Made by a program: the position numbers and the translations under genes. Positions 15,885-51,886 of a stretch of 64,000 nt of DNA are shown here, piece after piece (the stretch's first letter is position 1; the number at the start of each line of letters is the position of its first letter). This DNA comes from Halobaculum limi (GTDB lineage: Archaea; Halobacteriota; Halobacteria; Halobacteriales; Haloferacaceae), in assembly GCF_029490015.1 (NCBI RefSeq), contig NZ_CP120469.1:310001-374000 (forward strand). Direction: 5' to 3'. The notes under the pieces were generated by a model. The model saw only the letters and a program-made list of their open reading frames with translations, was not told where the DNA came from and ran no database searches.

Positions 15885-16706
15885 GTGAGCCTAAACACGG
15901 TGAAACCGATAGACACCACGATCCGGGAGGCTGGGCGGTCGCTACTAGAGCGGTCGCCGACGCTAGAGCCGTTCCTGGTGACTGCACGCGACCGATACGC
16001 GCGGACGCGTGTGCGACTCCGAACGCTCGCGAACAGCATACGCTACGCGGCGCCTCCCGAACCGTATCGCCTCATCCAGATCGACCCGAGCGAGGTCGGC
16101 CGCGGAGTCGAACTCGGTGTCTCGAAGTACGTCGAGGCGGGCAAAGTCGTCGGTGGCGAGTGGGAAGGAGAGTGGTTCACGTTCGGAGAGTCCGACGTGT
16201 ACCAGGCGTACGAGGCACACTTCCAAGATGGTGTTCCGTGGGAAGAGACGGCGTTCTACGCACGAATCGTCGGCGAGCTAGAGAGCGGAAAGGTTCGGTG
16301 GGGCTGCCGGACGGAAACGGAGTTCCAGGACCGCTGTGATCGACTCGAACGCCTCTATGAGCGCCTCCAGACGGAAGGGTACCGCAGTCAGGCCGAACTC
16401 CTCGCTGACGGCGGCGACAACCTCATCCAGTTCGGTCGCCGGTCTCACCTCTTAACCGAGCGCCTAAAAGATGAGATCGCGATCCACATCGACCGACGTG
16501 GAGAACTCATCTTCTCCGACGGTCGCAACCGCCTCTCGATGGCGAAACTCATCGGACTCGACTCGGTGACCGTTCGGGTCTTGCGCCGCCACGCCGACTG
16601 GCAAGCAATCCGCGACGCCTACGTCCGCGGCGAACCGTGGACGAAGGCGTACGCCGACCACCCGGACATCGCGTACCTCGAGTTCGGATCGAAGCCCGCA
16701 CCCTGA
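15885..16706 (+). CDS. Conserved haloarchaeal protein with ParB/Srx-like C-terminal region
   Basis: 273 residues, GTG start 18 bases after the oxidoreductase stop, so probably co-transcribed. The N-terminal half is charged with no motif. Residues about 200-250 (HIDRRGELIFSDGRNRLSMAKLIGL then VRVLRRHADW) resemble the DGRHRL core of ParB/sulfiredoxin-fold domains, which in some families bind or hydrolyse nucleotides. No function can be assigned. The context suggests a glycan-linked role rather than DNA partitioning. Confidence 0.55.
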   Translation: MSLNTVKPIDTTIREAGRSLLERSPTLEPFLVTARDRYARTRVRLRTLANSIRYAAPPEPYRLIQIDPSEVGRGVELGVSKYVEAGKVVGGEWEGEWFTFGESDVYQAYEAHFQDGVPWEETAFYARIVGELESGKVRWGCRTETEFQDRCDRLERLYERLQTEGYRSQAELLADGGDNLIQFGRRSHLLTERLKDEIAIHIDRRGELIFSDGRNRLSMAKLIGLDSVTVRVLRRHADWQAIRDAYVRGEPWTKAYADHPDIAYLEFGSKPAP

Positions 16707-16885
16707 GTCGAACAGAGCCTCGATATCGCCGCCGATCACGTCCGGGGGATCGACAACAGAACTACCCATTTTAGCTATCTCACCTACGGTACATCAGGTG
16801 CCTGAGTCACCTATTGTATGCTGAGAAGCGTTGTAGTAGACGGCGTACACCCCTCACGCGCGAGAAACAGGAATGACCAGCCAGT

Positions 16886-19800
16886 CTACCTAGTAGCGGT
16901 CTGCAGTTCGAGGACGACCATCGACCCGGGACCGTCGGTCTGTTCGCGGAGGAGGCGGCCGTCGTGTGCTTCGGCGAGCCATCGGGTGAGCCACAAGCCC
17001 AGCCCGCTGGCGTGCGTGAGTTGAGATATCTCCTGACCACCGGTGATGACGGACCACTCCGATGCCGGGATGCCAGGACCGTTGTCAGTGAACCGAACGC
17101 AAGTGGTGTCCCCGCCGTCGTCGTGACCTATCACGTCGACGTGGAGACGAGCGTCCGACCTGGCATTGTGTTCGATGGCATTCTCGACGAGTTCGACGAA
17201 CGCCCTGCGTACATCGACGTCCTGGTTCCGCTGGACGTACACCTCGTGTGGAACATCGGCGGTTATCTCGGCGTCGGGGAACCGTGAGCGCTGGGCTTCG
17301 ATCACCCGCGCGAGCGACCGCGAGAGATTGACTTGTTCCATCTTACGGCCGCGCGTGCCGAGCACTTGTTCGATCCGCTTGGCCTTCTCGCTGAGCGTCG
17401 TTGCCTTCCGCGCCTTCTCGGTGAGGACGCGCGCGCTTGACCCGAGGTCGGCGTCGTCGATAGACTCCGCAATGTGTTCGCCGATGCCCATCACGACGTT
17501 GAGGTCGTTTCGGAGGTTGTGCCGGAGGACGCGGTTGAGGATCTGGAGGTACCGCTCGCGCTCACGCTGTTCGGTGATGTCAGTGTACACTGCGAACGCG
17601 CACTCGGTCTCATCGTGCGTGTATGGGATACCCCTAAGCAGGAAGTCGAGGCGTCCCTGTTCGGTCGACCGCTGAACCTCCGCGCCGAACTGTGCCCCGA
17701 CACGGACGGCCTCGTCGAACTCGTGTGCGGCCTCGAGCAACTCGCGCGGAACGATCAGATCGTTGATGCTCGCACCGTGGACCTCGTCTGTGCTGAGGCC
17801 GAAGACGGACTCGAACGCTGGGTTCGCGTACTCGACGATGGGGTCGCCGTCGACGAATCGGATATCTGCGATGGGGTCAGGGAGGTTCTCGAACAGTTCG
17901 CGGAAGCGGTCGCGCTCGTGTCGCAGGTCGGTTCGCGTCTCCGCGAGTTTTGTGATGTCTGTGAGTCTGCCGGCGACGACGCCCGTCTGGCGTGATTCGT
18001 CGACACTTGACACCTCGACCTCGACGGGTGTGAGATCACTCTCTGCGTCTTGGATCCACGTCTCGACAGTGTGGCTCGTACCGGGAGGTGCAGTTCGGAG
18101 GTCCGCGAGGACTGCCTCGACCCGGTCGTCGTCGACGTTCGCGACGACCGACGAGAGCGCCACGCCATCGGTGAGCGTCGATCCGCTTTGGACGCTCGCT
18201 TCCATCTCGCCGGTGACAAACGTGAATCGCCCAGCTTCGTCAAGCAAGAACGCCTTCTCGTCGACGTGATCGACGATGCGTTTGAGCCGCCGCATCTCGC
18301 TTTGCTGGTCGATGCGGTCGAACGCGCTCGTGGCCGCTCGTGCGAGGAGTTTGACGAGGGCGGCGTCTTCGCTGTCGAAGGCATCAACCTCTGAAGAACC
18401 AACACCAAGCGTTCCGTGGTCTCCGAGCGGGAGGATCATCCCGGAGTTGGCCGGGCCGTAGTCGCGGTCATTGATCGAGCCGAGGTTGTCGACAATCACT
18501 GGTTCGCCGGTCTGGAAGGCACGCCCGGAGGGACCGACAGCGTCGTCGACCGGCGGGTACGGGTCGGCCGTCAGCTCGAGCAGGCCTGATTCGTAGGCGG
18601 GGACAAGTCGCCCGGTCTCGGGGTCGTGGAGTCTGATGATGCTCAGGTCGTGGCCAAACACGCGCTGGACGGATCTAACCAGCGACTCCAGCAACTCGTT
18701 GAGGTCTCTAGCCTGTTGGAAGTCGCGCGTCGTCTCGACGAGCGTGTTCAGCGTCTGCTCGCGTCGTTTACGCTTCGTCACGTCGCGCTGGAACCCGGTG
18801 AAGTTGACCACGTCCCCGTCCGCATCGAAGATTGGGGCGAGGACCACCTCGTTCCAGAACACCCTCCCGTCGGCGCGGTAGTTTCGGAGTTCCACCTCGG
18901 TCGACCCCTCGTGTTCGACGGCGGTTCGGAGTCGATCGATCGCCGCCTCGTCGGTGTCTTCGCCCTGTAGGAACCGACAGTTACGACCGATAACGCGCTG
19001 TGAATGGTAGCCTGTTATTTCCTCGAACTTGTTGTTGGCGTACACGATGGGGTTTCCGTCTTTATTCGGGTCGGTGATCGTGATGCCAATGGGAGCGGTG
19101 TCGATAGCACGCGTCTTCAAAACCAGTTCCCGTTCGCGTTCCTTCCGCTCGGTAATGTCCCTGAAGTACACCGAGAGCCCACTTTCGCTCGGGTAGGCGG
19201 CCACGGAGAAGTCCCGGCCGATAGGCTCGTAGTGTTCCTCGAGTGAGACGGTCTCTTGCGTCTCCATCGCCTCTGTGAACTCCTCGTAGAACGCCGATTC
19301 GAGTGCTTCAGGTGCGTGGTCGATGAGTGTCTCCCCGATGAGTGAGGAGGCCTCGTCGTCGATGTGCATCAGGTCCCGAAGGGTCTGTTCACCAAACTGG
19401 TTCGTGTACGTCACCTCCCAGTTGGTGGTGATGGCGAAGAAGCCGTCGCTGACGCGGTCGAGCGTCCGTCGGAGGTCGTCGCGGGCGGCGACGAGTTCCC
19501 GTTCGGAGGGGTCGTCTGTGTCGCTATCAGGGGCTGTTGGCCCGACTTTGGTGTTGTCCGCGACTGAAGGCGCTCGCTGGGAGAGAGCGGCGGCATTTTC
19601 CTCAGTATAGTCAACGTGTGCGTCGAGCCGACTCACAGCGAGTCGATGTCGAACCGCTCCGTCAACGATGGGAAGAATCTCGGTCGCACCGGCGTCGAGT
19701 GGCGCATCCGCGTCCGCGGAACGACACGCAGCGAACACAGCGCCATCGGGGACAGCGGCACGTAGTCGTCGGATCACGGCGGTTGCGTCGGTCATCGGAG

Positions 19801-19996
19801 GATCGTGAACGCATACGAGACAGTCCACGTCACCGCCGGCGAGACGGGCGACCGCATCCGACTCCGATCCCGTCGTCTGCACGGAGAGGAGGTCGCGAGT
19901 GCGGTCAGGGAACAGCGAGCGAATCGACGCGGCGTCGTAACCCCTCACCTCGACAGCGAGCGCACGTGTAGAGTATGAGGGCGTGGTGGAGGGCAT
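16886..19996 (-). CDS. Hybrid-sensing histidine kinase with a LOV-type PAS domain
   Basis: 1036 residues. Order: receiver-like N-terminus (about 10-120), PAS (170-280), LOV-type PAS (290-415), GAF (425-570), two more PAS domains (575-810), HisKA-like H-box RVLRHNLRNDLN, then an ATPase domain with VELVENAIEHN, DNGPGIP and GLGLWLTRW. The second PAS carries GRNCRFLQGEDTD with the photo-active Cys (Cys340, codon 18977-18979). Its partner residues NYRADG, FWN and GFQRDVT, which contact flavin in LOV domains, are also present. It is predicted soluble and to autophosphorylate on the H-box His. No response regulator lies beside it. ATG 19996 is preferred to GTG 20011. Confidence 0.85.
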   Translation of the reverse strand: MPSTTPSYSTRALAVEVRGYDAASIRSLFPDRTRDLLSVQTTGSESDAVARLAGGDVDCLVCVHDPPMTDATAVIRRLRAAVPDGAVFAACRSADADAPLDAGATEILPIVDGAVRHRLAVSRLDAHVDYTEENAAALSQRAPSVADNTKVGPTAPDSDTDDPSERELVAARDDLRRTLDRVSDGFFAITTNWEVTYTNQFGEQTLRDLMHIDDEASSLIGETLIDHAPEALESAFYEEFTEAMETQETVSLEEHYEPIGRDFSVAAYPSESGLSVYFRDITERKERERELVLKTRAIDTAPIGITITDPNKDGNPIVYANNKFEEITGYHSQRVIGRNCRFLQGEDTDEAAIDRLRTAVEHEGSTEVELRNYRADGRVFWNEVVLAPIFDADGDVVNFTGFQRDVTKRKRREQTLNTLVETTRDFQQARDLNELLESLVRSVQRVFGHDLSIIRLHDPETGRLVPAYESGLLELTADPYPPVDDAVGPSGRAFQTGEPVIVDNLGSINDRDYGPANSGMILPLGDHGTLGVGSSEVDAFDSEDAALVKLLARAATSAFDRIDQQSEMRRLKRIVDHVDEKAFLLDEAGRFTFVTGEMEASVQSGSTLTDGVALSSVVANVDDDRVEAVLADLRTAPPGTSHTVETWIQDAESDLTPVEVEVSSVDESRQTGVVAGRLTDITKLAETRTDLRHERDRFRELFENLPDPIADIRFVDGDPIVEYANPAFESVFGLSTDEVHGASINDLIVPRELLEAAHEFDEAVRVGAQFGAEVQRSTEQGRLDFLLRGIPYTHDETECAFAVYTDITEQRERERYLQILNRVLRHNLRNDLNVVMGIGEHIAESIDDADLGSSARVLTEKARKATTLSEKAKRIEQVLGTRGRKMEQVNLSRSLARVIEAQRSRFPDAEITADVPHEVYVQRNQDVDVRRAFVELVENAIEHNARSDARLHVDVIGHDDGGDTTCVRFTDNGPGIPASEWSVITGGQEISQLTHASGLGLWLTRWLAEAHDGRLLREQTDGPGSMVVLELQTATR

Positions 19997-20113
19997 TTCT
20001 CGAAGGCGCACGCTACAGATACAAGAAACTGTGCGCAGATAAAGTCCTCAAAATGACACGTTCAGGGCACAACGCGGGGGGATAGCACCTACCGTGCGGC
20101 ATTTGACCGTCGG

Positions 20114-21076
20114 TCAGTGCTCGGCGTCGAACAGGTCTGCGAGCCCGGTTTCGAGGTCGATGCTCGCCTCGAATCCCAATTGCTCGCGCGACTTCGTGGT
20201 GTCACACTGACTGCGGTCGATATCGGCCGGTCGTGGGTCAATATGGACCACACCGCCGGTGGAGCCAGACACCTCTACGATTGTGTCGGCGAGTTCGCGG
20301 ATAGTGACGCTCTCGCCGGTACCAATGTTGAACGCCTCGCCAGAGTGGTCGGTCGTCGCCGCCGCGAGATTGGCGCGGACGACGTCGGCGACGTGAATGA
20401 AATCCCGGGTTTGCGAGCCGTCTCCTTCGACAGTGAGCGGGTCGTTCGCGGCCGCTTGGTCCATAAACGTCTTGATGACGCCCGCGTAGTCACCTCCCGA
20501 CTGTCCGGGGCCGTATACATTGAAGTACCGCAGCGCGACCGTCTCCAGGTCGTATAGGCGGTTGTAGACGCGTGCGTAGTGGTCGATGGCGAGTTTGTCC
20601 GTCGCGTATGGCGACGTGGGTTCGGTCGGGTGTGTCTCGTCGATAGGGATAGTCTCGGGGCTGCCGAAGATTGCGACGCTGGAGGCCAACACCACTCGGG
20701 CATCGACCTCACGGGCGGCGTCGAACACCGCGAGCGTCCCTGCGACGTTGATCCGGTTGCTCTCTGCAGGCTGTTCGACCGACGCGGGCACGCTCACCAG
20801 TCCGGCCTGGTGGAAAACGAGGTCGACTTCGTCCATCGCCTCCTTGAGCAGCTCCGTGTCGAGGAGGTCACCAGCGTACAGGCCTGCGCCTGTGGGGACC
20901 TTCCTTTCTTCCCCCGTCGAGAGATCATCAAGGATGCGAACCTCGTTGTCGTCGACGAGTGCGCGAGCGATGTGGCTCCCGATGAATCCCGCACCGCCGG
21001 TGACAAGTACTGTCTGGCCGGCGATGTCGTGGTCGATGTCAGCGGTGTCGGTGACGGCAGTATATCCTGTACTCAT
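20114..21076 (-). CDS. NAD-dependent sugar epimerase/dehydratase (extended SDR, GalE-like)
   Basis: 320 residues. The NAD-binding motif TGGAGFIGSH is at 26-35, catalytic YATDK at 157-161 and the Ser of ASSVAIFG near 132. C-terminal residues read DIDRSQCDTTKSREQLGFE as in UDP-glucose 4-epimerase-like enzymes. It probably interconverts a UDP-hexose or UDP-N-acetylhexosamine at C4 for the glycan pathway. ATG 21076 is chosen because it gives a family-length protein and lies 25 bases from a promoter element. Confidence 0.85.
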   Translation of the reverse strand: MSTGYTAVTDTADIDHDIAGQTVLVTGGAGFIGSHIARALVDDNEVRILDDLSTGEERKVPTGAGLYAGDLLDTELLKEAMDEVDLVFHQAGLVSVPASVEQPAESNRINVAGTLAVFDAAREVDARVVLASSVAIFGSPETIPIDETHPTEPTSPYATDKLAIDHYARVYNRLYDLETVALRYFNVYGPGQSGGDYAGVIKTFMDQAAANDPLTVEGDGSQTRDFIHVADVVRANLAAATTDHSGEAFNIGTGESVTIRELADTIVEVSGSTGGVVHIDPRPADIDRSQCDTTKSREQLGFEASIDLETGLADLFDAEH

Positions 21077-49567: not shown

Positions 49568-51886
49568 ATGAGTACTGATTCGTTCGACCCCGTCTCGGTC
49601 CTGTACGTGGACCGTGATCAGTCGGCGGCCGAGCGGACGGTCGCGGCACTAGAAGGGGGGGACGAGCGGATTACGGCGACCCCGGCGACGGACCTCGCGA
49701 GCGTCCGTCGCCTCCTCGCAGACGGTCGGTTCGACTGTGTCGCCGCGGCGTCTGACCTGTGTGACGCCACCGAACGAACCGTGGCCGCAGCCATCGACGA
49801 CGGCGGTCACTCCTGCCCACTCGTGGTGCACGAAGGGGCCGCAGACGGAGCAACAGTCACCGCTGTTCGGCCCACGGACAGGGTGGACACTATCGACGTG
49901 ACTCGATCGGATTCGTCGGTCGACGACCTTCGATCGAATATCGTCGACGCCGTGCGAGCGTGGCGACGAGAGCGGGACCGGGCACGAGCGAGACGGGTCA
50001 ACGACCTGTTCCACAGTGCGACGGCAGAACTCGTCCGGGCGACGACCACCGAAGCTGTCGAACGCGCCGTCTGTTCTGCCATCGAGGAGTCGACGGTGTA
50101 CGCGTTCGGTTGGGTCGGTCACGTCGACGGTGACGAAGGCGGGTGTGTGATCCGACCGACCGCCGCCAGCGGGGAGAGCACCCCCCTCAGACCAGTCACT
50201 CTCTCGGGAACCGAGGTTGCGTCCCACGAGCACACCGAAGCCACGGTGACGGTCCACCAGACACCTCAAGCGGACGGTGCTGACGACGCACAGCGGTGGG
50301 GGACACACGCGACGGAGCAGTCAGTCGAGTCCGTCGCGTGCGTTCCGCTCGGCAGGACACACCGCCGGCGGGTGGCGGTCGTGTACGCGACCGACCCCGG
50401 GGCGTTCGGGGAGTCGGAGGTCGCGGCGCTCCGTGCGTTCGGCGAGACGGTCGGAGAGGCGTTCGATGCGGTGACGCCGCAAGCGACGGACGCAGACACG
50501 CTGAGCACGGCCCAGCGTGAGCGCTTCGTGTCGGTCTTCGAGTCGATTCCGTATCCGACCGTCCACGTCGAGATGGACAGCGACGGGAGCAATCGAGTGA
50601 AGGCGACGAACTCGGCGTTCAGCGAGACGTTCGGCTACGACGAATCGGAGGCTGTCGGACAGTCGATAAACGACCTCATCGTGACGCCGGAACGGACGGA
50701 CGCCGCACGGGAACTCGACAAGCGCGTCGCCGACGGCGAACGCGTCGAGGCGGAACTCTGCCGCGAGACCGTCGACGGCCCCCGACGGTTCCTCTTTCGT
50801 GCGCGGAAGTTCGAGATTCGAGACGGGAGTAGGGAGGCGCTAGGCGTGTACGTCGACATCACCGACCGAAAGCGTCGCGAGACGGAGTTGGAGCGCTACG
50901 AGCGGATCATCGAGGCGGCGGGCGACCCCGTCTACACACTCGACCCCGAGGGCTACATCACCTACGTGAACGCGCAGATTGGCGAACTGACCGATCAATC
51001 CCCGGAGGAACTCGTCGGGAAACACGTCTCGGCGATGCTGCCCGACGAGGAGGTTCGACGAGGGACCGAACTGATCACCGAGTTGCTCGACGACCCCGAC
51101 CGCGACCGGGCGACCGTCCGGATGTCGGTCAAACGAGCCGACGGCGAGGTTCCCGTCGAGAACCACATCGCCCTCCTGCCGTCCGACGAGGGATTCGGCG
51201 GAACCGTCGGCGTCCTCCGCGACATCAGTGGGCGAGTCGAACGCGAAGAACGGCTGAAAGCACAGAACGAACGACTAGAGGCGTTCTCCAGCATCGTCGG
51301 TCACGACCTCCGGAATCCGCTCAACGTCGCACAGGGACACATAGACCTGGCACGCACCGAAAGCGACCTCGACGAGACGGAGGCGCTCGACACCGCCGGC
51401 CGTGCACTCGACCGAATGGAGCGACTCATCGAGACGCTGTTGACGCTCGCACGGGAAGGCCGGTCCGTCTCTTCGTTGGAGCCAGTTCCGCTGTCTGCCC
51501 TCGTCGAAGACTGTCGAGAAGTCGCCGAGACGATGGGCGGAACCCTGGACGTGGACGCGACGGAGACGGTACTCGCGGACCGAACCCGCCTGCGACAACT
51601 CGTCGAGAACCTCGTCCGCAACGCCATCGAACACGGCGGCCCGGACGTGACCATCCGCATCGCCGACGCGCCCGACGGGTTCGTCGTGGAAGACGACGGC
51701 CCCGGCATCCCGGCGGAGGCACACGACCACCTGTTCGAGATGGGATACACGACCGACGACGGGACTGGCCTCGGACTGAGCATCGTCAAGCGAATCGTCG
51801 AGGCTCACGAGTGGGACATCGAAGTCGGGGCCAGCGAAGACGGCGGCGCGAGATTCACCGTCACCGGCGTCGATCGACCGGAGTGA
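49568..51886 (+). CDS. PAS-domain sensor histidine kinase
   Basis: 772 residues, no membrane segment. Receiver-like N-terminus (VSVLYVDRDQSAAERTVAAL, about 10-125) lacking an obvious phospho-acceptor context; GAF-like region (about 145-310); PAS (325-435); second PAS (440-560); HisKA with FSSIVGHDLRNPLNVAQG; ATPase with RQLVENLVRNAIEHGG, DDGPGIP and GTGLGLSIVKRI. A cytoplasmic sensor kinase of the kind abundant in haloarchaea. Signal and partner regulator are unknown; no LOV Cys motif is present. Confidence 0.85.
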   Translation: MSTDSFDPVSVLYVDRDQSAAERTVAALEGGDERITATPATDLASVRRLLADGRFDCVAAASDLCDATERTVAAAIDDGGHSCPLVVHEGAADGATVTAVRPTDRVDTIDVTRSDSSVDDLRSNIVDAVRAWRRERDRARARRVNDLFHSATAELVRATTTEAVERAVCSAIEESTVYAFGWVGHVDGDEGGCVIRPTAASGESTPLRPVTLSGTEVASHEHTEATVTVHQTPQADGADDAQRWGTHATEQSVESVACVPLGRTHRRRVAVVYATDPGAFGESEVAALRAFGETVGEAFDAVTPQATDADTLSTAQRERFVSVFESIPYPTVHVEMDSDGSNRVKATNSAFSETFGYDESEAVGQSINDLIVTPERTDAARELDKRVADGERVEAELCRETVDGPRRFLFRARKFEIRDGSREALGVYVDITDRKRRETELERYERIIEAAGDPVYTLDPEGYITYVNAQIGELTDQSPEELVGKHVSAMLPDEEVRRGTELITELLDDPDRDRATVRMSVKRADGEVPVENHIALLPSDEGFGGTVGVLRDISGRVEREERLKAQNERLEAFSSIVGHDLRNPLNVAQGHIDLARTESDLDETEALDTAGRALDRMERLIETLLTLAREGRSVSSLEPVPLSALVEDCREVAETMGGTLDVDATETVLADRTRLRQLVENLVRNAIEHGGPDVTIRIADAPDGFVVEDDGPGIPAEAHDHLFEMGYTTDDGTGLGLSIVKRIVEAHEWDIEVGASEDGGARFTVTGVDRPE

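Follow-up and report, generated by a model that had tools for sequence, protein, structure and literature searches.

Within a cluster of surface polysaccharide genes, the haloarchaeon Halobaculum limi encodes a large sensor kinase, and its location raises two questions: whether the protein senses blue light, and whether it governs the glycan genes that surround it. The window analysed here, a stretch of 64,000 nucleotides, is part of the 429-kb second replicon (C2) of a genome of two contigs. Judged by its sequence and by a structural model, the protein is very probably a cytoplasmic histidine kinase sensitive to blue light. Comparison of gene neighbourhoods shows that its gene occupies a variable gap of a conserved glycan cluster, and a role as dedicated regulator of these glycan genes is most likely not what it has.

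The gene (16886..19996, minus strand, with its stop codon at 16886-16888) was delimited by its open frame, its Pfam domains and a syntenic orthologue in Halobaculum marinum. The frame extends over 1041 aa from a GTG at 20011 and over 1036 aa from the ATG at 19996, and the latter start is supported by the H. marinum orthologue (annotated CDS 157128-160178), which also begins with Met close to the equivalent point. Visual inspection of the sequence suggests no transmembrane segment, and we take the product to be soluble and cytoplasmic. Both GC (0.627) and GC3 (0.759) are the same as in the neighbouring genes, so that composition carries no signature of a recent transfer. A second histidine kinase of 772 aa, with a conventional GAF-PAS-HisKA-HATPase arrangement, is encoded about 30 kb off (49568-51886, plus strand).

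The assignment as a light sensor comes from a LOV domain at aa 296-411 (18764..19111, minus strand), recognised by Pfam PAS_9/PAS (304-408), by its match to YtvA and by its model. The initial annotation had read here the motif GRNCRFLQ with Cys340 and a set of Asn/Asn/Gln flavin contacts, within a LOV histidine kinase. Sequence, model and conservation all give that reading good support: the residue count is exact with the start at 19996, and the eight flavin-contact positions that we checked (N339, C340, R341, Q344, R357, N372, N382 and Q403) are all occupied as expected. Cys340, the residue expected to form the adduct, is encoded at 18977..18979 (minus strand) and is conserved in H. marinum. 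Among PDB LOV domains the best match is the LOV domain of YtvA (E 3.7e-31), and those of aureochrome and of bacterial LOV kinases are also found; these are characterised LOV domains with photoactivity. A model computed from 13 sequences (pLDDT 94.8) superimposes on the Meiothermus LOV domain 9vf7 (TM 0.96, rmsd 0.8) and also matches the Brucella LOV-HK structure.

The LOV domain is embedded in a longer chain of modules, all read from the minus strand. A receiver-like domain (aa 1-130; 19607..19996), which the initial annotation had missed, is followed by a first PAS domain (aa 165-292; 19121..19504; Pfam PAS_4, 1e-6) and the LOV domain, and then by a GAF domain (aa 429-560; 18317..18712; GAF_2, 1.3e-16), a PAS-sized block that is conserved in homologues (aa 575-690; 17927..18274) and a second ordinary PAS domain (aa 692-810; 17567..17923; PAS, 5.2e-10 over 697-810). 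The dimerisation and phospho-acceptor helix region (17327..17563) contains H826 in the motif RHNLRNDLN, invariant in H. marinum, and is recognisable by this motif, with HisKA falling below the Pfam cut-off (E 0.033). The HATPase_c catalytic domain (aa 927-1033; 16898..17218; 5.1e-13) closes the protein, with its N (N939), G1 and G2 boxes all present. Thus, of the modules originally proposed beside the LOV domain (a GAF, more PAS domains and a complete kinase core), the GAF, the HATPase_c boxes and one later PAS domain stand, whereas a further PAS domain at aa 575-690 finds no family match in Pfam, and only one PAS domain after the GAF is supported. The N-terminal domain, also without a Pfam match, was identified by alignment and by a low-confidence model (pLDDT 67), which matches receiver domains at E about 5e-5. 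Its acceptor position, presumably that of the usual haloarchaeal receiver motif (DCVVSD-type) with which we compared it, carries V, H or R in six homologues (the kinase and five aligned proteins). The domain is therefore a pseudo-receiver, and the missing phospho-acceptor Asp rules out a functional receiver.

How such a protein would work can be proposed from its parts. In the dark, the LOV domain would hold FMN non-covalently, and blue light (about 450 nm) would drive the formation of a covalent bond between C4a of the FMN and Cys340. Q403 and the beta-sheet would then pass the signal to the dimer helices by way of the GAF and PAS modules, altering the autophosphorylation that the C-terminal ATPase domain performs on H826, and the phosphate would finally reach a response regulator encoded at an unlinked locus. 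For this kinase we infer flavin binding and photochemistry as well as the kinase activity, the partner and the output. The remaining sensor domains probably add further inputs and, since there are several of them, light may be a minor one.

Flavin-binding LOV domains can also serve as redox sensors. That the H. limi domain binds flavin mainly to sense redox state or oxygen, with light being incidental, is an unlikely alternative for which Caulobacter LovK and the Bat-type PAS regulators offer precedents: LovK photochemistry depends on the redox state, and Bat, which is devoid of the LOV cysteine, has been described as a sensor of redox state and, putatively, of light (PMC4844311). However, Cys340 is retained in both orthologues, and keeping this residue is not automatic, because in this genome it has been lost from two other LOV-like domains, which have Pro or Leu in its place (L004, C1:2829239-2829580, and L005, C2:420504-420839); two further LOV domains keep it (C1:1540138 and C1:49367). 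A photochemically active LOV kinase is our best reading of the predicted protein. As for the two domains without cysteine, both retain several flavin-contact residues, and the second belongs to a short protein of about 197 aa in which a kinase domain was not found. Pro in place of the LOV cysteine has also been seen in archaea from Lake Diamante (PMC12202551).

The H. marinum orthologue of the kinase shares 58% identity overall, with 64% in the LOV domain, 67% in the kinase core and 44% in the receiver-like domain. It has retained all the kinase boxes, and its eight flavin residues are identical, although 36% of the LOV residues differ. The gene is under purifying selection (dN/dS about 0.38 by Nei-Gojobori, a rough value since dS is near 0.9); together with the similarity to PDB LOV domains, this places the LOV kinase assignment far beyond chance. 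Among 170 genomes of the family and 392 of the order, H. marinum is the only one with a full-length orthologue, which resides on plasmid NZ_CP119990.1 (250,847 bp). Weaker relatives share the scaffold of PAS, GAF, block, PAS and kinase at 44-46%. The LOV module is present in one of them (L021) and, more distantly, in three others (L024, L025 and L038); it is absent in L022, L023 and L027, where PAS is joined directly to GAF, and it is replaced by a PAS domain without the LOV Cys motif in L018-L020. This distribution across homologous kinases makes the LOV domain look like an exchangeable input on a common kinase scaffold. A locus search started from the single kinase protein returned only distant bacterial LOV or LOV-like matches.

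The second question concerns the neighbours. They form a widely conserved surface polysaccharide or glycan cluster, comprising genes for a phosphoglucomutase/phosphomannomutase, glycosyltransferases, two Gfo/Idh oxidoreductases, an epimerase, a flippase and a UDP-sugar dehydrogenase, and also for a DegT aminotransferase, a hexapeptide transferase, a FemAB-like acetyltransferase, and beta-helix and PKD proteins. On one side, the kinase is flanked by a gene that converges on it (15885..16706, plus strand), which has relatives in 117 of the 392 genomes of the order and keeps the same position in all compared clusters except at one locus. Its product of 273 aa has no Pfam or NCBIfam match, and in the majority of the glycan clusters that we compared it is encoded beside a Gfo/Idh oxidoreductase. 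On the other side lies the conserved gene of an NAD-dependent epimerase (20114..21073, minus strand; Epimerase, 4.8e-62). Gene order around the kinase is identical in H. limi and H. marinum, the only two Halobaculum genomes in which the kinase stands between these two flanks. In H. lipolyticum, the epimerase and the converging gene are 7 bp apart, the kinase is absent from the site and the cluster is intact; a plasmid record of this species carries a 34% relative, and nothing closer. Four further Halobaculum clusters (G019, G013, G015 and G017) are likewise intact, with flanks 38-312 bp apart and no kinase; no orthologue was found elsewhere in these four genomes, the last of which has just a 32% relative.

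Outside the genus, both flanks were located in seven clusters, and the kinase is missing from every one of these. Their gaps hold a probable polysaccharide deacetylase (L088), an ATP-grasp-like protein (L090) or a membrane protein (L091), as named by eye, or a phosphodiesterase family protein that matches a homologue in the window (L092 and L093), and one gap spans about 0.6 kb (L087). The gap itself (16707-20113 in H. limi) is a site of variable cargo, nearly empty in five Halobaculum clusters and filled with different genes in other haloarchaea. In a tree of five flanking proteins, H. marinum and H. lipolyticum are sisters and H. limi comes next (support 1.0 and 0.99). From this topology, the kinase would have been either gained once and lost in H. 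lipolyticum, or gained twice.

These comparisons bear on the idea that the kinase is a light-dependent regulator of the surrounding cluster, transcribed as the last gene of a flippase-epimerase-kinase unit. The epimerase and kinase genes indeed share a strand, with the epimerase upstream at a distance of about 118 bp in H. limi and 92 bp in H. marinum, the position has been retained in two diverged species, and exopolysaccharide, biofilm or attachment are influenced by LOV kinases in Rhizobium leguminosarum and Caulobacter (PMC4844311). Nevertheless, we consider such a role improbable: five other Halobaculum clusters, including that of H. lipolyticum, the sister of H. marinum, are intact in its absence, different genes occupy the gap in the outgroups, and a Pfam scan of the window ORFs, with small and overlapping ones set aside, turned up no response regulator. 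The kinase is no obligate component of the cluster. Moreover, of the cluster genes used as probes, none was found near the closest other relatives of the kinase, in regions of 20 kb, which further weakens the link. A terminator-like site, by consensus match only, lies between the epimerase and the kinase (20076-20057, minus strand); the promoter scan relied on a bacterial consensus, uninformative for archaea.

A narrower version, in which the LOV kinase would have been recruited into the cluster within the Halobaculum lineage and made surface glycan synthesis dependent on blue light, seems to us less probable again. Light-controlled surface glycans are possible by analogy with the bacterial LOV kinases that do this, and nothing favours them here beyond position; the kinase-free clusters lower the odds even of a regulatory link acquired in the carriers. 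The suggestion of light-controlled surface properties, made from the location among glycan genes when the kinase was first annotated, is thus not supported, and the empty sites and interchangeable cargo rule it out as the leading view. Finally, a degenerate or inactive sensor, to which the receiver-like domain without Asp and the weak HisKA match might point, is very hard to reconcile with the low dN/dS and with a conserved kinase core that retains every box.

Haloarchaeal LOV kinases have been known since 2014, and the predicted LOV kinase of H. limi is one more of them. A survey of that year listed 167 LOV proteins from 82 archaeal species, among them kinases that also have receiver, PAS and GAF domains (PMC4844311), and in 2025 photoactivity at 3 M salt was demonstrated for one isolated haloarchaeal LOV domain, ALovD-1 of Halonotius, with a dark form at 446 nm, an adduct at 390 nm and slow recovery (PMC12202551). 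The proteins of that survey, the Lake Diamante set and ALovD-1 likewise place a canonical GXNCRFLQ LOV domain in a multi-PAS/GAF kinase (PMC4844311, PMC12202551), often with an N-terminal receiver-like domain as in H. limi. ALovD-1 has Tyr where the H. limi motif has Phe, and the H. limi architecture (pseudo-receiver, PAS, LOV, GAF, block, PAS and histidine kinase) was found, among the genomes sampled, in two of Halobaculum only. The bacterial LOV-HKs of Caulobacter (LovK), Brucella and Rhizobium leguminosarum have the same LOV input and kinase output, and their solved LOV structures match, but they are much shorter. The NCBIfam YtvA and blue-light kinase models match the H. limi protein solely at its LOV domain, the bacterial LovK-type model NF052306 reaching 140.9 bits there against a cut-off of 450. 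YtvA of Bacillus subtilis, whose LOV domain is the nearest solved one by sequence, has a STAS domain as output instead of a kinase.

Haloarchaea have otherwise been studied for their rhodopsins; flavin-based light sensing has been widely predicted in them, but the only test concerned a single isolated domain (PMC12202551). We found no report in the literature on the output of any archaeal LOV kinase, and we are aware of no previous example of an archaeon whose cell-surface glycosylation is controlled by light. The H. limi kinase adds a clear orthologue pair and a clear absence in relatives. It is a clean candidate, for which an orthologue can serve as comparison and which some relatives naturally lack. 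The comparison also shows why, for a gene inside a functional cluster, relatives should be consulted before its position is taken as a sign of regulation. The bacterial precedents for exopolysaccharide and attachment (PMC4844311) keep the idea of light acting on the cell surface testable.

H. limi also has other light receptors or pumps, as its four rhodopsin-family genes indicate (C1 at 338799, 967644, 65547 and 1429360). A second LOV histidine kinase with the canonical cysteine, of 981 aa and with several further PAS domains, belongs to the locus C1:47198-50140 and 50146-51594 (L100:7199-11595, minus strand). Its gene lies 5 bp downstream of that of a KaiC-family ATPase on the same strand, and the two possibly constitute a two-gene signalling unit. 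The rhodopsin gene at C1:65547 is about 14-16 kb from this pair.
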